DNA of 64,000 nt. Origin: Natronorubrum sulfidifaciens JCM 14089. GTDB lineage: Archaea; Halobacteriota; Halobacteria; Halobacteriales; Natrialbaceae. The stretch covers positions 1 through 64,000 of the forward strand of contig NZ_AOHX01000002.1 in the NCBI RefSeq assembly GCF_000337735.1, written 5' to 3'. Under the pieces are notes generated by a model. That model was not told the origin of the DNA and did no database searches. It saw only the letters and a list, made by a program, of their open reading frames with translations. The position numbers were made by a program, and so were the translations under genes. Positions 14,211 through 23,493 of this stretch are shown piece after piece; the stretch's first letter is position 1, and each line of letters begins with the position of its first letter.

Positions 14211-16037
14211 TCACTGATCGCGGACGTTGTACTGGACGTCCACAGCGGCATTCCCACAGAGGGTGAACGCCTCGATGTCGCCGTCGAACCAGTAGGCATC
14301 GAGCCAGTTGCCGACCGCGCCGCGAACGGCCTTTCCTTCGATGACGTCCTCATCGTCGATCGAGGCACCTCGGTAGGTGGATTTGACGACTGCACCGCTC
14401 ACCTCGAAGGAGTACGTACTCGGATTCTCTGCTTCAGTTCCGTCGATAACGAGGACGTGGGGAAGCAGTTCGTGGTCGCCGTAGTCGGCTGGATCGATCT
14501 CTTCACCGTCGAGGCTCACTGTTGCCTCGCCGTCAATGACGGTGACATCAGTCAACGTCCCCGAGAACCGGAACGTCTGGCTTCCGTCGGTGAGCGTGCT
14601 CTGGACCGTCGACCCCGACACGGTCGTCGCTTCCTCTTTCGGCTCGTCGTCGCTCTCGAGTTCAATCCTTCCCTCGACTGTGATCTCGAAACTCGTCGGT
14701 GAGTCACGGCTCTCGACGTCGAGCACGTGGGGGAGTTTCTCACCGTAGTCGGCGGCATCGATCTCCTCGTCGTTGACCAGCACCGTTGCCGGCCCATCGA
14801 CCGTGAGTTGCTCGAGGTCACCACTGAAACGGAAGGCGTCTTTCCAGTCTGCGACGACACCGCTTGCGAGTGAGCCGTCGACCTCGGCTCCGTCGTCGAT
14901 CGTCGCCCCGTCGTGGTTCGATGGCTCAACGTCGCCGCTGACTTCGAACTCGTATCGAGTTACGTCCGCGGCGTCTCCATCGAAGAGGATCACGTTCGGG
15001 AGTTGCTCGTCACTCTCGTCGTCGTCGCTCTCGTCGCTGTTTGTGCTTCCGGTGGAGTCGGTGTGTGCCGTTCCAGACGCAGCGGCCTCTGCCGAGGTCG
15101 GAACGCCGTCGGGGATCGAGAGATCCGGATTGGTCCCGACGGCGTCACCGACTGTGACGCTTGAGCCGCTTGCACGCTGAATACTCCCTTGGTAACCGCC
15201 GCTCTCGAAGCGCACACGACCGGGCGAGCCGTTTGCCCCGGCGACGAGTGCGTAGGGGTACGGTCCGTCGGCGAACTGTGAGTCGCGAATAGCCACGGTG
15301 CCGCCGTTCCAGACCCAGACGGGGCGGCCGTTGGTTTCGGTGTAGCCGCCGTAGCCGGGGCCGTAGTCGGTGTTGTCGTTGTACGCGACACAGTTTTCGA
15401 TCACGTCGTTGCCGCCCGCACAGCGGAACGTCGAGACGCCGTTGTTTTTCCCGAAACAGGTATCGAAGTGGACACTGCTCGGTCCAGACGCGGTGTTAGA
15501 ACAGTAGAAGCCGTTGTTCGGGAAGCCCTGGACGTTACAGCAACGGAACGTCAGGTTCGCGTCACTGCCACGGTGCATAAAGACCGCACCGGGACCGTGG
15601 ACGAAACTCGAGCCCTCTTTGGTCGCCCCATCGCCCATATAGATGTTTTCGAAAAGGATGTCGCCGCGGCCGGCGTTGATCGAGATCAGGAACTGATCGC
15701 CGCGGTAGAGACCTTTGAAGCCGATGTTTCGAATCACCGAGTTCGCTCCTGTGACGTTCAGCAGGATACTGTCGCCAGTCGAAACGTCGATGAGTTTGTT
15801 CTCGAACGTTTCTCCGCGGCCGATGTTGATCACCTGACCGCGTGCGCGGATGACATCGTAGTCTTCGCCGTCGGCGCTTGCGCTCGCCCCGAACACTGTC
15901 GCCGCTGCAGTCGTTGCACCGGCGAGTTTCATATACGATCGTCGGTGGAGTAATCCAGTATTACCGCGTTCATCCGCCGACTCGTCCTCGCTGTCGACGG
16001 ATCCGTCTTCGTTCAGTACCGAAGGTTCGCGTGCCAT
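14211..16037 (-). CDS. Tat-exported parallel beta-helix protein with three C-terminal repeat domains
   Basis: 608 residues. A twin-arginine signal (HRRSYMKLAG, Arg32-Arg33, then an Ala-rich core) directs folded export. Residues about 58-320 form a right-handed parallel beta-helix of the kind found in polysaccharide lyases and epimerases (VIRNIGFKG, ILFENIYMGDGA, CCNVQGFPNNGFYC, VIENCVAYNDN). After an acidic linker (about 325-345) come three tandem domains at about 346-434, 435-524 and 525-608. Each begins LPxV and carries a YxFEVSG-like strand, a DAFRFSG-like strand and a VxVxxxDEEID-like end. The same domain forms the small protein at 21,740. No catalytic residue can be assigned. It is probably a surface glycan-acting or glycan-binding protein. 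Confidence 0.85.
   Translation of the reverse strand: MAREPSVLNEDGSVDSEDESADERGNTGLLHRRSYMKLAGATTAAATVFGASASADGEDYDVIRARGQVINIGRGETFENKLIDVSTGDSILLNVTGANSVIRNIGFKGLYRGDQFLISINAGRGDILFENIYMGDGATKEGSSFVHGPGAVFMHRGSDANLTFRCCNVQGFPNNGFYCSNTASGPSSVHFDTCFGKNNGVSTFRCAGGNDVIENCVAYNDNTDYGPGYGGYTETNGRPVWVWNGGTVAIRDSQFADGPYPYALVAGANGSPGRVRFESGGYQGSIQRASGSSVTVGDAVGTNPDLSIPDGVPTSAEAAASGTAHTDSTGSTNSDESDDDESDEQLPNVILFDGDAADVTRYEFEVSGDVEPSNHDGATIDDGAEVDGSLASGVVADWKDAFRFSGDLEQLTVDGPATVLVNDEEIDAADYGEKLPHVLDVESRDSPTSFEITVEGRIELESDDEPKEEATTVSGSTVQSTLTDGSQTFRFSGTLTDVTVIDGEATVSLDGEEIDPADYGDHELLPHVLVIDGTEAENPSTYSFEVSGAVVKSTYRGASIDDEDVIEGKAVRGAVGNWLDAYWFDGDIEAFTLCGNAAVDVQYNVRDQ
15950..15964. promoter_or_regulatory. 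15-bp palindrome GTAATCCAGTATTAC, within the start of a beta-helix gene
   Basis: A perfect GTAAT/ATTAC inverted repeat with a 5-bp spacer, inside the codons just before the Tat motif. Close matches lie at 16,190 and 17,382. It may be an operator, or simply reflect a conserved N-terminal peptide (Asn-Thr-Gly-Leu). Confidence 0.35.
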
Positions 16038-16440: not shown

Positions 16441-17448
16441 TCAGTTACTGCCGGCGGCTGCCTCTTCGGGACTGGTTGGTGTTCCCGCTGGAACGAATGC
16501 TTCGGGGTCGGTACCCGTGTCGTCCTCGAGTTGGACGCTCGAGCCGGCGTGCTCGGCGATACCGCCGTCCGCGTCGTAGTCGGTGTTCCGGAGCACGACA
16601 TTCGTTCCTTGGCCGTTCGCACCGGCGTCGATCGCGGTGTGGTGGCCGTTCATCTCGATCTGGCAGTCTTCGACTTCGACCGTTCCCGGCGACCAGGCCC
16701 AGATACCCCGGCCGGCATAGCCTTCGTTGTCGACGTACACACTGGAGTTCGTTACCTTGCTCCCTTCCGTCGCGAGTCGATAGTGCGAGACATAACAGTT
16801 GGCAGCGAAACAGCTATCGATGTGGATCGTCCCACCGCCGCTGTTTCCGGGTGCGGAGGCGTAGATCGCGTTATCCGCAAAGCCCTGAATGTTGACGTTT
16901 TTGAAGTCGATGTGTCCGGAGTGGTCGGGGGCGACCCAGAACGCGGTCTGGCCGTGCCCGTTCGGATTGCCGTTTCCGTCACTCGAGCCATCTCCGAGGT
17001 AGACGTTCTCGACGGTGCTGGTGCCGCCAGCGCCATCGGAAATGCCGAACGTGGCGGACCCGGTTCCGGAGGTGTTCTCGCCTTTGAAACCGATGTTCCG
17101 AACCGTCCACTCGCTGCCGTGTGCGGTGATGACGATATCCTGGCCGGTCGTCATGTCGATGAGCTTGTTCTCCCAGGCTTCGCCATCGCCGATAGTGATG
17201 GTCTGGCCGGCGGCTTCGATCACTTCGTAGTCCTCGGCGGCTGTCCCACCGGTGGATTCGGGGTCCACACTGGTGGTTCCGGACTCCTCGTAGTCGTCCT
17301 CGGCGGATGTCGTGCCGGCTGCACCGAGCGTGGCTGCCGCGGTCGCGACTGCGGCGAACGAACGCACGTAGCTGCGTCGGCTTAATCCACTATTACGGGT
17401 TGCTTTCGGCGTAGTGTCCGTCTCGGACGTACGGGGGTTCTGCGCCAT
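16441..17448 (-). CDS. Tat-exported parallel beta-helix protein
   Basis: 335 residues. The Tat signal is SRRSYVRSFAAVATAAATLG (Arg24-Arg25). The mature part is a single parallel beta-helix (about 75-315) with the family hallmarks: DYEVIEAAGQTITIGDGEAW, WTVRNIGFKGEN, VENVYLGDGSS, NVNIQGFADNAIYAS and HIDSCFAANC. It ends in an acidic linker-like tail (TPTSPEEAAAGSN) at the point where the neighbour at 14,211 continues into three extra domains. It is probably a secreted or wall-associated protein acting on the surface polysaccharide. A lyase, epimerase or adhesin role all remain possible, and no catalytic triad is identifiable by eye. Confidence 0.83.
   Translation of the reverse strand: MAQNPRTSETDTTPKATRNSGLSRRSYVRSFAAVATAAATLGAAGTTSAEDDYEESGTTSVDPESTGGTAAEDYEVIEAAGQTITIGDGEAWENKLIDMTTGQDIVITAHGSEWTVRNIGFKGENTSGTGSATFGISDGAGGTSTVENVYLGDGSSDGNGNPNGHGQTAFWVAPDHSGHIDFKNVNIQGFADNAIYASAPGNSGGGTIHIDSCFAANCYVSHYRLATEGSKVTNSSVYVDNEGYAGRGIWAWSPGTVEVEDCQIEMNGHHTAIDAGANGQGTNVVLRNTDYDADGGIAEHAGSSVQLEDDTGTDPEAFVPAGTPTSPEEAAAGSN
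17382..17396. promoter_or_regulatory. 15-bp palindrome TTAATCCACTATTAC, within the start of a beta-helix gene
   Basis: It matches the palindromes at 15,950 and 16,190 with one outer mismatch, and lies in the Asn-Ser-Gly-Leu codons before the Tat motif. Confidence 0.3.
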
Positions 17449-20220: not shown

Positions 20221-20327
20221 TTGTGATTCCTGAACGATCAACGGTTCTGATGGTTTTTGTACTCCGTCGTGATCCCTCGAGATGACTGCGATCAGTGTGC
20301 GTCCACTGCCAGTTCGTTCGACCAGCT

Positions 20328-21635
20328 ATGTCATCAATTGTTATCGACCACGTCAGCGCCGACGGTACGACCCTCGAGTGTGACGTCCGGACGTCTGCCG
20401 ACCTCGAGCGGTTTTTCACGACCGAATCGTTTCGAACCAACTACGATGTCCCGATCGAGACCGTCCCCGAGGGCATCCTCGCGATTCCCGTCCTCGCGCA
20501 GGTCTGTCCCGTCGCGTGGGCGAACGGGGCCGACGTCTACGTCGACGAGGTCGACGCGACGTTTGCAAGCGCTCTCGAGGACGTCAAGGAAACGCTGTGC
20601 TCGATGCACGACTTTCTCGAGGGTGGGACGCTGTATGCAAAGCGCACGACCGATCCCGAACCCGAACCGGGTGGTGAGAGTGGCCTGCTCTTTACCGGTG
20701 GCGTCGACTCGACGTACTCCTATGTCCGCCACCGCGAGGAGTCACCGACGCTGATTAGCATTCGTGGGTGGACGATCACGCCCGAGCCAGCCGACGACGA
20801 CGACTGGGACGCCCTCCGCTCGCGTGTCTCGTCGTTCGCCGCCGATCACGACCTCGAGACGGCCTTCGTCGAGTCGAACATGCTCTCGTTTCTCGCCCAC
20901 CCGATGTTGCTGGCTCACTACAAACGCTACGTCGATGGCGCGTGGTACAGCTCCGTCGGCCACGGCCTCGGGCTGCTCGGACTCTGTGCGCCGATGGCCT
21001 ACGCTCGCGGCATCGAGGACCTCTACGTCGCTGCGACCCACTGGCAGGGGATCGACCTCGAGTGGGGGTCACGGCCCGATATCGACGACTACGTCCGGTG
21101 GGCTGGCACACAGTGTCATCACGATGGCTACGAGTTGACCCGACAGGAACGGCTCGACCGCATCGCCGACTACGTCCAAACGGCGGAGCCGACGCTCGAA
21201 CTCCAGACCTGCAACGTCCGAATGGACGGCAACTGCGGTGAGTGTGAGAAGTGTTACCGGACCGCTGTCGGCCTTCGACTCGCCGGCCTCGAGCCAACGG
21301 CACACGGCTATCTGTTCGTCGACGAGGACTATCACGAGATCCGAACTGCACTCGAGGAGGGTCGGTGGGTCCTCGGACAGGACGAACGCTACATGTGGGA
21401 CGATATCCGCGAGCGCGCTCGCGAAACGGAGCCGACGTCGGACGCCGAAGCGGCGTTTTTCGAGTGGCTCGATGCGGCTGCTCTCGGCGACCTCGTTTCC
21501 GACTCCTCGCCGCCGCTGTCGCACCGACTGCTCCGTGCGGGCGCGAGAAACGCGCCAGCTCCCGTCTACAACACCGTCTATCCTGCTTGGACGTCCGCGA
21601 AGTCGGGACTGCGCCGCGTTCGATCCGACCGCTAA
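20328..21635 (+). CDS. PP-loop ATPase family protein with a C-terminal cysteine cluster
   Basis: 435 residues. The PP-loop is LLFTGGVDSTYSYV (near residue 130), the adenylating signature of the ATP-pyrophosphatase superfamily (QueC, asparagine synthase, sugar amidotransferases). Near residue 300 a CNVRMDGNCGECEKCYRT cluster gives four cysteines that could bind zinc, as in QueC-type enzymes. It should activate a carboxyl or carbonyl group with ATP for amination or thiolation. Its place in a polysaccharide locus points to modifying a sugar rather than a nucleoside, but that is inference. I chose ATG 20,328 (MSSIVIDHVSADGTTLECDV). An in-frame start at 20,295 adds only 11 unlikely residues. Confidence 0.8.
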   Translation: MSSIVIDHVSADGTTLECDVRTSADLERFFTTESFRTNYDVPIETVPEGILAIPVLAQVCPVAWANGADVYVDEVDATFASALEDVKETLCSMHDFLEGGTLYAKRTTDPEPEPGGESGLLFTGGVDSTYSYVRHREESPTLISIRGWTITPEPADDDDWDALRSRVSSFAADHDLETAFVESNMLSFLAHPMLLAHYKRYVDGAWYSSVGHGLGLLGLCAPMAYARGIEDLYVAATHWQGIDLEWGSRPDIDDYVRWAGTQCHHDGYELTRQERLDRIADYVQTAEPTLELQTCNVRMDGNCGECEKCYRTAVGLRLAGLEPTAHGYLFVDEDYHEIRTALEEGRWVLGQDERYMWDDIRERARETEPTSDAEAAFFEWLDAAALGDLVSDSSPPLSHRLLRAGARNAPAPVYNTVYPAWTSAKSGLRRVRSDR

Positions 21636-21739: not shown

Positions 21740-22069
21740 CTATCGTTCCGGAACGCCGTAATCGATATGCACGTTCGGAACGCTCGCGGAGTCCGGTGCT
21801 TCGACGCCGTTCCAGTCGACGACACGAACGTTCGTCACTTGGCCGGCAAAGCGGAATCGCTGAACGCCGACGTCGATCGCTCCCTCCGCGACGCTGCCCG
21901 AGACGATCGTTGCCTCCTCAACGGGGTCTTCAGCGTCCATCTCGATCTCGCCATCGACGGCGATTTCGAAACTCGAGGGGACGCCGCGGCCGACGATCGT
22001 CACGAGATTCGGAAGTGGTTCTGTCTCTGTCGTGGCAACCTGGTTCTGTACCGGTGTGTCGCGTGCCAT
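21740..22069 (-). CDS. Free-standing copy of the beta-helix C-terminal domain
   Basis: 109 residues and no signal peptide or membrane helix. Residues about 19-105 align with the C-terminal domains of the protein at 14,211. PSSFEIAVDGEIEMDAEDP matches PTSFEITVEGRIELESDDE, EEATIVSGSV matches EEATTVSGST, and QRFRFAGQVTNVRVVD matches QTFRFSGTLTDVTVID. It ends VPNVHIDYGVPER, resembling the start of a further unit. The rest of the beta-helix protein is absent, so this is either a decayed relic or a cytoplasmic partner using the same fold. The clean open frame and sensible acidic composition favour a real gene. Confidence 0.7.
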   Translation of the reverse strand: MARDTPVQNQVATTETEPLPNLVTIVGRGVPSSFEIAVDGEIEMDAEDPVEEATIVSGSVAEGAIDVGVQRFRFAGQVTNVRVVDWNGVEAPDSASVPNVHIDYGVPER

Positions 22070-22290
22070 ACTTCGGTAAGTTTGTCTCTTCGGTATAAGC
22101 CTTCTTGTCGACTCATTGGTAGCAGTTCAAGAAATATAGGCACTCAGATACGGCACAACGAGCTGATAGTCATCCAAGATATGACGACAAGTGGAGAGGT
22201 AGTGAACGGCGACGGCACGCTACTGACAGCCGACGCACAGCAACTCCTCGTCCGCGTTGTACTGGTGTCGCCGTCCGTTGACGCTGCTGG

Positions 22291-23493
22291 CTACCGAAGC
22301 GTCGAGAACGTGTTCAGGAGGTCACGAACGAACGGGCGTGGATCGTCACGGCTGAGATAGTCGAACCGCGGCTCCTCGTAGAGCGTTCGGGCCACTTCGG
22401 CCACCGCCGCCGTCACTGGTGGCTTCTCGACGAGGTCGATGTCTTTTCTAAGTATCGAATGCAGATACAATAGCTCGCCTCGCAGTAGGTGTCCACCGAT
22501 TCCTGGCTGGTAGCTGTGGTCAATCCGATCACGCGCCCCGTTTGCCAGCAACCAGTAGTAGTACGGGAAGTCCGCACCGGCCTGCACCGAGAAGGGAAGC
22601 GACGACCAGAACCGCGGATTGACCTCCATAAGCTTGAACTCGCCTGTCTCCTCATCGCGCAGGAACTCGACCATCGCGAGCCCGTGCCACTCTAACTCAT
22701 CGAGCAGCGCCAGCCCGGATTCCTCGAGCGCCGGAATGTCGACTGACTCGCGAAACGCACTGGGGCCGCCCGCGTAGCTGTAGCCACGGCGCTGTCGGTG
22801 CTGGAAGGTCGCCACTGGCTCGCCTTCGTCGTAGAGTGCGAAGAAGCCGTACTCGTCGGTCGTCGAGACGTACTCCTGAATCAGTGGCACGTGGTGCATC
22901 TCGGTGTGGACGGCCTCGGTCGCGGTAGTTCGAGCCGACTCGAGATACTGGGTCGACGGCGGGGCGACACAGGTTTCTGGCGTGTACTCATCGACGTACT
23001 CGTCTCCGAGGATTGTATACCGTGGCTTGATGATCCACTTCTGGCCGTCATCGGGTGCGGCTGTAAACAGCGCTGTTTCCGGTGCGCCAACACCGGCCGT
23101 GTCGGCGGCTTCGAACAGTCGCATCCGGTCTTGTGCTCGCGCGAGCGTGTCGAACGTCGGCCAAGGGGTGCTAACGTACTCGGCGAACTCGTCTCTGTAC
23201 TTCGATAACACGTAGATGTCCGGCTCTCGAACCGGGATGATCGTCCGCACGTCCGGGCGCATCGCCAGCGAGCGCAGCGCGTCCTTATATGCCACGAGGT
23301 CCTCGTGTGGCGACGGCACACGAACCGCCTCGTTACAGTATTTCGACTGAAACGCAGGGGTCGTTTCATCACTCGAGACGACGATCGTTCGGATACCGCG
23401 TCGACCAAGCGACCTCGCACAGGCGACCGTACTCGGCGCGGCGATCCCCGGAACGACGACTGATTCGTTCCCGTTCCAGGCGGAGTTGTCCAT
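22291..23493 (-). CDS. ATP-grasp family carboxylate-amine ligase
   Basis: 400 residues, cytoplasmic. An N-terminal Rossmann-like part (VVVPGIAAPSTVACARSLGR, then RGIRTIVVSSDE) is followed by the ATP-grasp fold (KWIIKPRYTILGDEYVDEYT, VPLIQEYVSTTDEYGFFAL, LALLDELEWHGLAMVEFLRD, LMEVNPRFWSSLPFSVQAGA). The final E-x-N-P-R motif coordinates Mg-ATP. The family joins a carboxylate to an amine or similar nucleophile through an acyl phosphate. Here it may add an amino acid to a sugar of the surface polymer. A CATAACATTTC variant of the locus motif lies 20-35 nt upstream. The substrate cannot be told from sequence. Confidence 0.85.
   Translation of the reverse strand: MDNSAWNGNESVVVPGIAAPSTVACARSLGRRGIRTIVVSSDETTPAFQSKYCNEAVRVPSPHEDLVAYKDALRSLAMRPDVRTIIPVREPDIYVLSKYRDEFAEYVSTPWPTFDTLARAQDRMRLFEAADTAGVGAPETALFTAAPDDGQKWIIKPRYTILGDEYVDEYTPETCVAPPSTQYLESARTTATEAVHTEMHHVPLIQEYVSTTDEYGFFALYDEGEPVATFQHRQRRGYSYAGGPSAFRESVDIPALEESGLALLDELEWHGLAMVEFLRDEETGEFKLMEVNPRFWSSLPFSVQAGADFPYYYWLLANGARDRIDHSYQPGIGGHLLRGELLYLHSILRKDIDLVEKPPVTAAVAEVARTLYEEPRFDYLSRDDPRPFVRDLLNTFSTLR

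Follow-up and report, generated by a model that had tools for sequence, protein, structure and literature searches.

A conserved short protein of Natrialbaceae, related to the repeats of an exported protein, with paralogues beside genes for DNA-binding proteins

The window (the whole stretch of DNA analyzed here, 64,000 nt) contains a gene for a small free-standing protein, its upstream element, its two neighbors and a longer paralogue in which the same domain is repeated.

14211–16037, minus strand: exported paralogue of 608 aa with a Tat-like start, a middle region and, at the C-terminus, the domain in three copies (from its translation and its matches to the 109-aa protein)
14214–14465, minus strand: repeat 3 of the 608-aa protein, the most divergent (20% identity in alignment A2)
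14469–14735, minus strand: repeat 2 of the 608-aa protein; nothing else in this genome is more closely related to the 109-aa protein (40% identity, E 9.2e-16, alignment A2)
14736–15005, minus strand: repeat 1 of the 608-aa protein (E 0.0026, alignment A2)
20295–21635, plus strand: downstream convergent neighbor, 446 aa, conserved in six related loci (cluster 10)
21740–22069, minus strand: free-standing single-domain protein of 109 aa, class A (from the ORF and its translation), the subject of this report
22092–22121, minus strand: conserved element TACC..TCGACAAGAAGGCTTATACC, whose core begins 36 nt before the ATG
22291–23493, minus strand: upstream neighbor about 220 nt away, ATP-grasp-like, with ATP-grasp-type matches under curated cut-offs

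The 109 codons run on the minus strand from an ATG at 22069 to a stop codon ending at 21740; a preliminary description of positions 21740–22069 had given no strand. We rejected an overlapping plus-strand ORF (21767–22360) as the true gene because its GC3 is lower (0.64 vs 0.71) and relatives conserve the minus frame. The ATP-grasp-like neighbor is kept in five related loci (cluster 16) and is called “ATP-grasp protein” in the Natronorubrum bangense annotation, the 446-aa neighbor has no Pfam or NCBIfam match, and Rfam gave no family at gathering score across positions 1–64000.

In a search of its own genome (3.46 Mb, 63 contigs) with the 109-aa protein, the self-match (E 1e-67) was followed by repeat 2 of the 608-aa protein, matched over residues 15–98, and by repeat 1, with no further match at E ≤ 10; repeat 3 was missed by this search. 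The match to repeat 2 bears out the earlier claim that the product aligns with one repeat domain of the protein at 14,211, and in alignment A2 FRFAGQVTNVRVVD of the 109-aa protein pairs with FRFSGTLTDVTVID of the repeat domain. By eye the start of the 608-aa product looks Tat-like, with RRSYMKLAG ahead of an alanine-rich stretch, and the middle region of the product is a beta-helix according to the preliminary description. Tat-like starts are found on two tandem minus-strand genes, 14211–16037 and 16441–17448, of which the first alone has the C-terminal repeats; gene sizes suggest the same tandem order in N. bangense (L241) and Haloterrigena turkmenica (L238).

The free-standing protein starts with MARDTPVQNQVATTETEPLP, polar over 20 residues and by eye without a twin arginine, and the first hydrophobic stretch in it coincides with strand 1 of the modeled domain. 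Because the two proteins are alike in their 19-residue hydropathy maximum (0.93 for the 109-aa protein vs 0.91 for the 608-aa start), our agreement with the earlier view that the product has neither a Tat nor a Sec signal rests on motif and layout as judged by eye. It also holds that the product is without a beta-helix: it is a single domain, modeled with eight strands, with neither a beta-helix region nor tandem repeats. By eye, there was no Tat motif or leader layout in 37 class A products and no export signal in 20 paralogue products. Could the 109-aa protein nonetheless be exported by an unrecognized route and act at the cell surface like its paralogue? The domain does have other copies in long proteins of exported type, namely the 608-aa protein and the products of two plasmid genes whose annotation is right-handed parallel beta-helix, but with no signal seen by eye in those products of classes A, B and C that were inspected, and with paralogues that pair with genes for DNA-binding proteins, we consider export very improbable.

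A model of the 109-aa protein built from 39 aligned rows has a mean pLDDT of 77.1, a pTM of 0.65, eight strands and no helix (an earlier model from 37 close rows had a pLDDT of 69.5), and predicts a beta-sandwich of unassigned type. Neither model had a Foldseek match in the PDB at E ≤ 0.001; the best VIA-align score for the 39-row model was Z 5.1, to the PA-IIL lectin and rated common by the tool, and the lectin and carbohydrate-binding folds among the top structural rows are at noise level. Sequence searches with the 109-aa protein gave no Pfam or NCBIfam family at E ≤ 1, a best PHROG match of only E 0.23 and four PDB matches at E 0.11–3. In the open-licence literature there was no paper on the protein or its regulator pairing, accession and locus-tag names included.

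Taking all free-standing classes together, 41 of 61 genomes (our own and 60 relatives) match the 109-aa query, with 32 of the 37 genomes of its own family at E 3.4e-34 or better and the 24 genomes of other families at 6.5e-7 at best (hand count). On the scale of the whole class, 144 of 391 genomes match at E ≤ 1e-4, again with all free-standing classes together; 93 of 101 own-family genomes match, 85 of them at E ≤ 1e-45, and other families reach no better than 5.5e-13 (hand count). Strong matches of the free-standing domain family are confined to Natrialbaceae among the genomes searched. The 39 class A search loci come from Natronorubrum, Haloterrigena, Natrinema, Natrialba, Natronococcus, Halopiger and other genera that we assign to Natrialbaceae, a placement that the tree tool confirmed for the genera displayed there.

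We tallied 98 loci by profile score, with class A at 176 bits or more, class B at 130–176, class C at 110–130 and the remainder at 90–110. The 59 places L094–L153 were picked from match lists and are a subset only; L041, with a frame open for 469 codons, and L126, a duplicate of L094, were left out. Locus L107 (score 117) falls in the class C band, though the domain tree groups it with rows adjacent to HalOD1. Class B products are about 100–109 aa long and frequently plasmid-borne, and those of class C are about 140 aa, with a longer start.

The search for orthologues of the same length that the preliminary description had proposed gave 37 class A products (the window gene and 36 of the 39 loci) of 106–119 aa, with a length of exactly 109 in 24 when the aligned ATG is taken as the start. 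Lengths and distances throughout depend on the start codon, taken as the aligned methionine or from the longest ORF. Loci L069–L071 were left out of the class A alignment and of the dN/dS values, which by the NG86 method are 0.08–0.38 for the window gene against 36 orthologues and have a median of 0.27 and a maximum of 0.51 across 663 of 666 class A pairs. A 330-nt CDS with the same start is annotated as “hypothetical protein” in RefSeq plasmid records of H. turkmenica (pHTUR04) and N. bangense.

Upstream of the class A ATG stands TACC-RTT followed by TCGACAAGAARGCTTATRCC, an element that we take to be BRE/TATA-like; its long form, sought with up to three mismatches, has no second match in the genome beyond 22092–22121. 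The core, AGAARGCTTAT, is common to the three classes: it occurs with at most one mismatch in 35/36 class A, 33/41 class B, 12/13 class C and 2/8 other loci, and in four of the 1046 control ORFs taken from these loci (each of at least 200 aa, with several possible starts scored), counts that are descriptive because the motif was chosen after viewing those same sequences. It mostly starts 35–38 nt before the ATG, and the 36 nt in the window suggest a leaderless transcript. The core is not exclusive to domain genes, since by coordinates only 10 of the 16 exact sites in six genomes precede them and six lie elsewhere, and we rejected it as a regulon marker on this count. Among these six, one (L242) lies apart and five (L243, L244, L246, L248, L253) precede another conserved, GC-rich element. 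This element, GTGGACGCCGGGCGGCCTCCCGGG, stands behind the same core in five of the six genomes (L253, which is G000:C46 near 28166, L246, L248, L243 and L244); it may be a small stable RNA, with no Rfam match in the three loci tested (L253, L246, L248). In three loci it is followed by an ORF resembling the MptE-type cluster, MptE, GHMP and HemA being names that we presume for ORFs.

The preliminary description had also entertained a decayed exported gene, that is, a relic which lost its signal and beta-helix and kept a single repeat. Besides the homology to repeat 2, the gene is similar over its first 27 nt to the beginning of the 608-aa gene (score 29 vs a maximum of 27 in 100 shuffles), so that an old internal deletion is possible as its origin, and single copies have indeed decayed (L070 of Natrinema gari is short by about 30 residues and L086 has one in-frame stop). 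Against a relic as the present state of the gene stand the uniform length of the 37 class A products, the low dN/dS, the promoter element at a fixed distance and two residues, E62 and H101, which are conserved in 96–100% of 108 free-standing rows and absent in alignment A2 from all three exported repeats of the window. We conclude that the 109-aa ORF is, on comparison of its sequences, a conserved gene under purifying selection and not a truncated relic, an explanation that we find hardly credible.

What, then, do the neighbors of the paralogues say about function? In class B, a PadR-type gene (Pfam PF03551, E 8e-15) lies within 250 nt in 30 of 41 loci, upstream on the same strand in 22 (17 of them at 81–96 nt) and on the opposite strand in eight, and HalOD1 does so in one of 41. 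In 12 of the 13 class C loci, a second winged-helix type (PHROG phrog_2440, “transcription regulation”, E 2.4e-18), which we take to be PhiH1-like, follows on the same strand, 35–173 nt downstream, and the thirteenth has HalOD1 7 nt downstream. The best copy of the PhiH1-like regulator adjoins class C in all six genomes compared, one of which supplied the query. HalOD1 is found 1–4 nt downstream on the same strand in three of the eight loci of the 90–110 band, and starts 1–7 nt 3′ of four Natronococcus paralogues (L143, L146, L147, L107), with which it likely forms an operon. The names PadR, HalOD1, TBP, CBS, DUF1616 and DUF7344 are those given by Pfam.

As a baseline, ten genomes (about 46 Mb) hold 132 PadR matches, 7–29 per genome, from which we estimate that a chance PadR neighbor within 250 nt would be seen at far fewer than 1% of loci, rising to about 1% on PadR-rich plasmids, bearing in mind that the locus counts are not independent trials because the loci are related to one another. 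Class A, with 0/36 in the same family, provides an internal control for PadR adjacency. A tree built from 76 PadRs has one subgroup of 52 rows (97/87) that is made up of 29 of the 30 adjacent PadRs and 23 others. The domain tree, in which class A was thinned to 21 of 43 rows and from which, as from the residue-conservation rows, L070 and L145 were omitted, places the PhiH1-adjacent rows in one group (84/84). The rows adjacent to PadR cluster (10 changes, with none of 500 shuffles as low) but share with class A a 72-row group, inside which the branching order is poorly resolved.

The domain thus lies repeatedly beside signaling or DNA-binding genes of three kinds, for which the simplest account is that it is one half of a split regulator. 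The explanation that we prefer, tentatively and as a good possibility rather than a probability, is that the 109-aa protein works inside the cell with winged-helix regulators, as a beta-sandwich subunit that serves as sensor or co-regulator, and does so in trans for class A. The class A product would be a small, acidic, probably cytoplasmic beta-sandwich protein, the winged-helix protein, PadR-type or PhiH1-like, would bind DNA, and the detached beta-sandwich protein would sense a ligand or modulate the regulator, by a physical interaction and with a direction of effect that we infer. The window copy would act in trans, because no regulator gene adjoins it. Besides the neighbors of the paralogues, this reading has in its favor the constraint on class A, the promoter core common to classes A, B and C, and the retention of E62 and H101 in free-standing forms. 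The cytoplasmic partner proposed in the preliminary description would in part survive: a cytoplasmic location accords with the lack of a recognizable signal and with paralogues beside DNA-binding-protein genes, and a partner it likely is, but of winged-helix regulators rather than of the exported protein.

Several observations, among them the absence of a significant fold match, count against a sensor of this kind, and gene adjacency does not in itself establish that the products interact. An adjacent PadR is missing in 11 of 41 class B loci, of which two lie behind a TBP gene and one behind what by eye is a PadR-like remnant; unrelated genes, too, have neighbors from the subgroup of the adjacent PadRs, and 0/20 further PadR loci hold a domain gene; and in class A a PadR or PhiH1-like gene occurs within 250 nt in 0/36 loci, and none was found in flanks of up to 6 kb. 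HalOD1 is within 250 nt in one of these 36. In another set of 51 loci with 1.5-kb flanks, in which many of the genes are ones already tallied, 48 have no PadR. In favor of the sensor, one genus (g11) has a PadR divergent from class A, 240–456 nt apart, in 5/5 genomes, a hint that the linkage between class A and PadR may be older and have been lost elsewhere.

Three of the class B loci without PadR have other neighbors. L117 and L132 lie directly behind a TATA-binding-protein gene (by Pfam for L132, to which L117 is near-identical by eye), with an ORF that we presume to be TFB-like about 1.0–1.3 kb downstream. At L112 the divergent neighbor is HTH_10-like by eye, and the cut piece tested had no Pfam match.

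The contig of the window also has, beyond the window itself, an orphan PadR that belongs to the subgroup of the adjacent ones, at G000:C2:154430–154696 beside a DUF1616 gene. With 91 aa and an upstream GATAACAAATA element, such an orphan stands beside a DUF1616 gene in seven genomes (including L204–L208, L222 and L223). A partnership of class A with the orphan PadR is a lead only, and we rejected the orphan as a class A marker, because at least four genomes that lack class A (G023, G024, G081, G291) also have a close orphan related to the adjacent PadRs. In eight family genomes without any domain match, copies of the orphan PadR are of 73% identity or less only.

Is the domain gene a partner of these regulators or merely one of their targets? 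If it were simply under PadR or PhiH1-like control, the protein would do some other intracellular job, for example bind a glycan intermediate or assist the exported protein. The conserved promoter element fits such a role, as do the lectin and carbohydrate-binding folds noted above, at noise level, and the clustering of class A with glycosyltransferase or polysaccharide deacetylase genes near exported genes in the window, N. bangense and H. turkmenica. About 6–10 kb separate class A from the exported paralogue in the window, Natronorubrum, Haloterrigena and Natronolimnohabitans; in the other compared genera (G013, G015, G016, G027, G032, G034) the two are on different contigs or hundreds of kilobases apart. 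Its surroundings vary by genus, with a glycan-type cluster in Natronorubrum and Haloterrigena but other genes in Natrinema, Natrialba, Halopiger and Natronococcus, and no conserved operon partner of class A was seen. Moreover, class C stands 5′ of a regulator that shares its strand, and only 1–7 nt separate HalOD1 from the domain gene ahead of it, arrangements that a shared function fits better, and we regard a role as target only as somewhat doubtful.

A third possibility is that PadR and the small protein form a module of plasmids or mobile elements that spread by duplication, with class A as a settled copy. Class B copies are indeed carried by complete plasmid records, at times several per genome, and an ORF that by eye we take to be transposase-like lies near three copies (cluster c5). 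However, all 31 plasmid records with a match were typed as non-mobilizable, at least 7 of 41 class B loci lie on contigs of more than 3 Mb, and free-standing members occur at E ≤ 1e-45 in 85 of 101 family genomes, with low dN/dS in class A. PADLOC found 0 anti-phage defense families for the 109-aa protein, the 608-aa protein and one class B protein, and 59 pattern matches in viral contigs included 0 relatives. We judge a module of this kind quite improbable.

Returning to the split regulator, a broader version of it is that these are lineage-specific split one-component systems, in which a detached beta-sandwich sensor, homologous to domains on exported proteins of the same cells, was paired at least three times (with PadR, PhiH1-like and HalOD1 proteins) and one kind of ligand would be read inside and outside the cell. 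This extension strikes us as unlikely. The results make a regulatory partner that can be tested out of a “hypothetical protein” whose family is present in most of the Natrialbaceae genomes searched, and they offer a handle on the signals to which short haloarchaeal PadR-type proteins respond. If the sensor idea is true, it also hints at the ligand of the unnamed domain on the exported proteins.

How does such an arrangement compare with known systems? Passages of Galperin et al. (2018; PMC5847659) describe HalOD1 (PF18545, halobacterial output domain 1) as a small stand-alone haloarchaeal domain that is present in many copies and tied to signal transduction. The free-standing family is likewise small and stand-alone and has HalOD1 beside some of its members, but it is a different sequence family, with no HalOD1 match for the 109-aa protein. 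In CsmR, an Lrp/AsnC-like regulator of Haloferax volcanii, a beta-sandwich part within the regulator mediates dimerization, according to an excerpt of PMC13286277. The likeness to CsmR is an analogy only, the beta-sandwich lying inside that regulator but in a separate gene here. With the PadR family (PF03551) the connection is one of gene neighborhood, short PadR genes of one subgroup adjoining the paralogues, whereas the 109-aa protein itself is modeled as all-beta and has no Pfam winged-helix or PadR match. The closest comparison is with the C-terminal repeat domain of haloarchaeal exported proteins of the 608-aa type, for which we found no Pfam or NCBIfam name: the core strands are homologous and both have the FRFSG motif. 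The exported proteins, however, carry the domain as repeats joined to a Tat-like start and a long middle region, whereas the 109-aa protein has it singly, and E62 and H101, missing from the three exported repeats, are kept by the free-standing forms.
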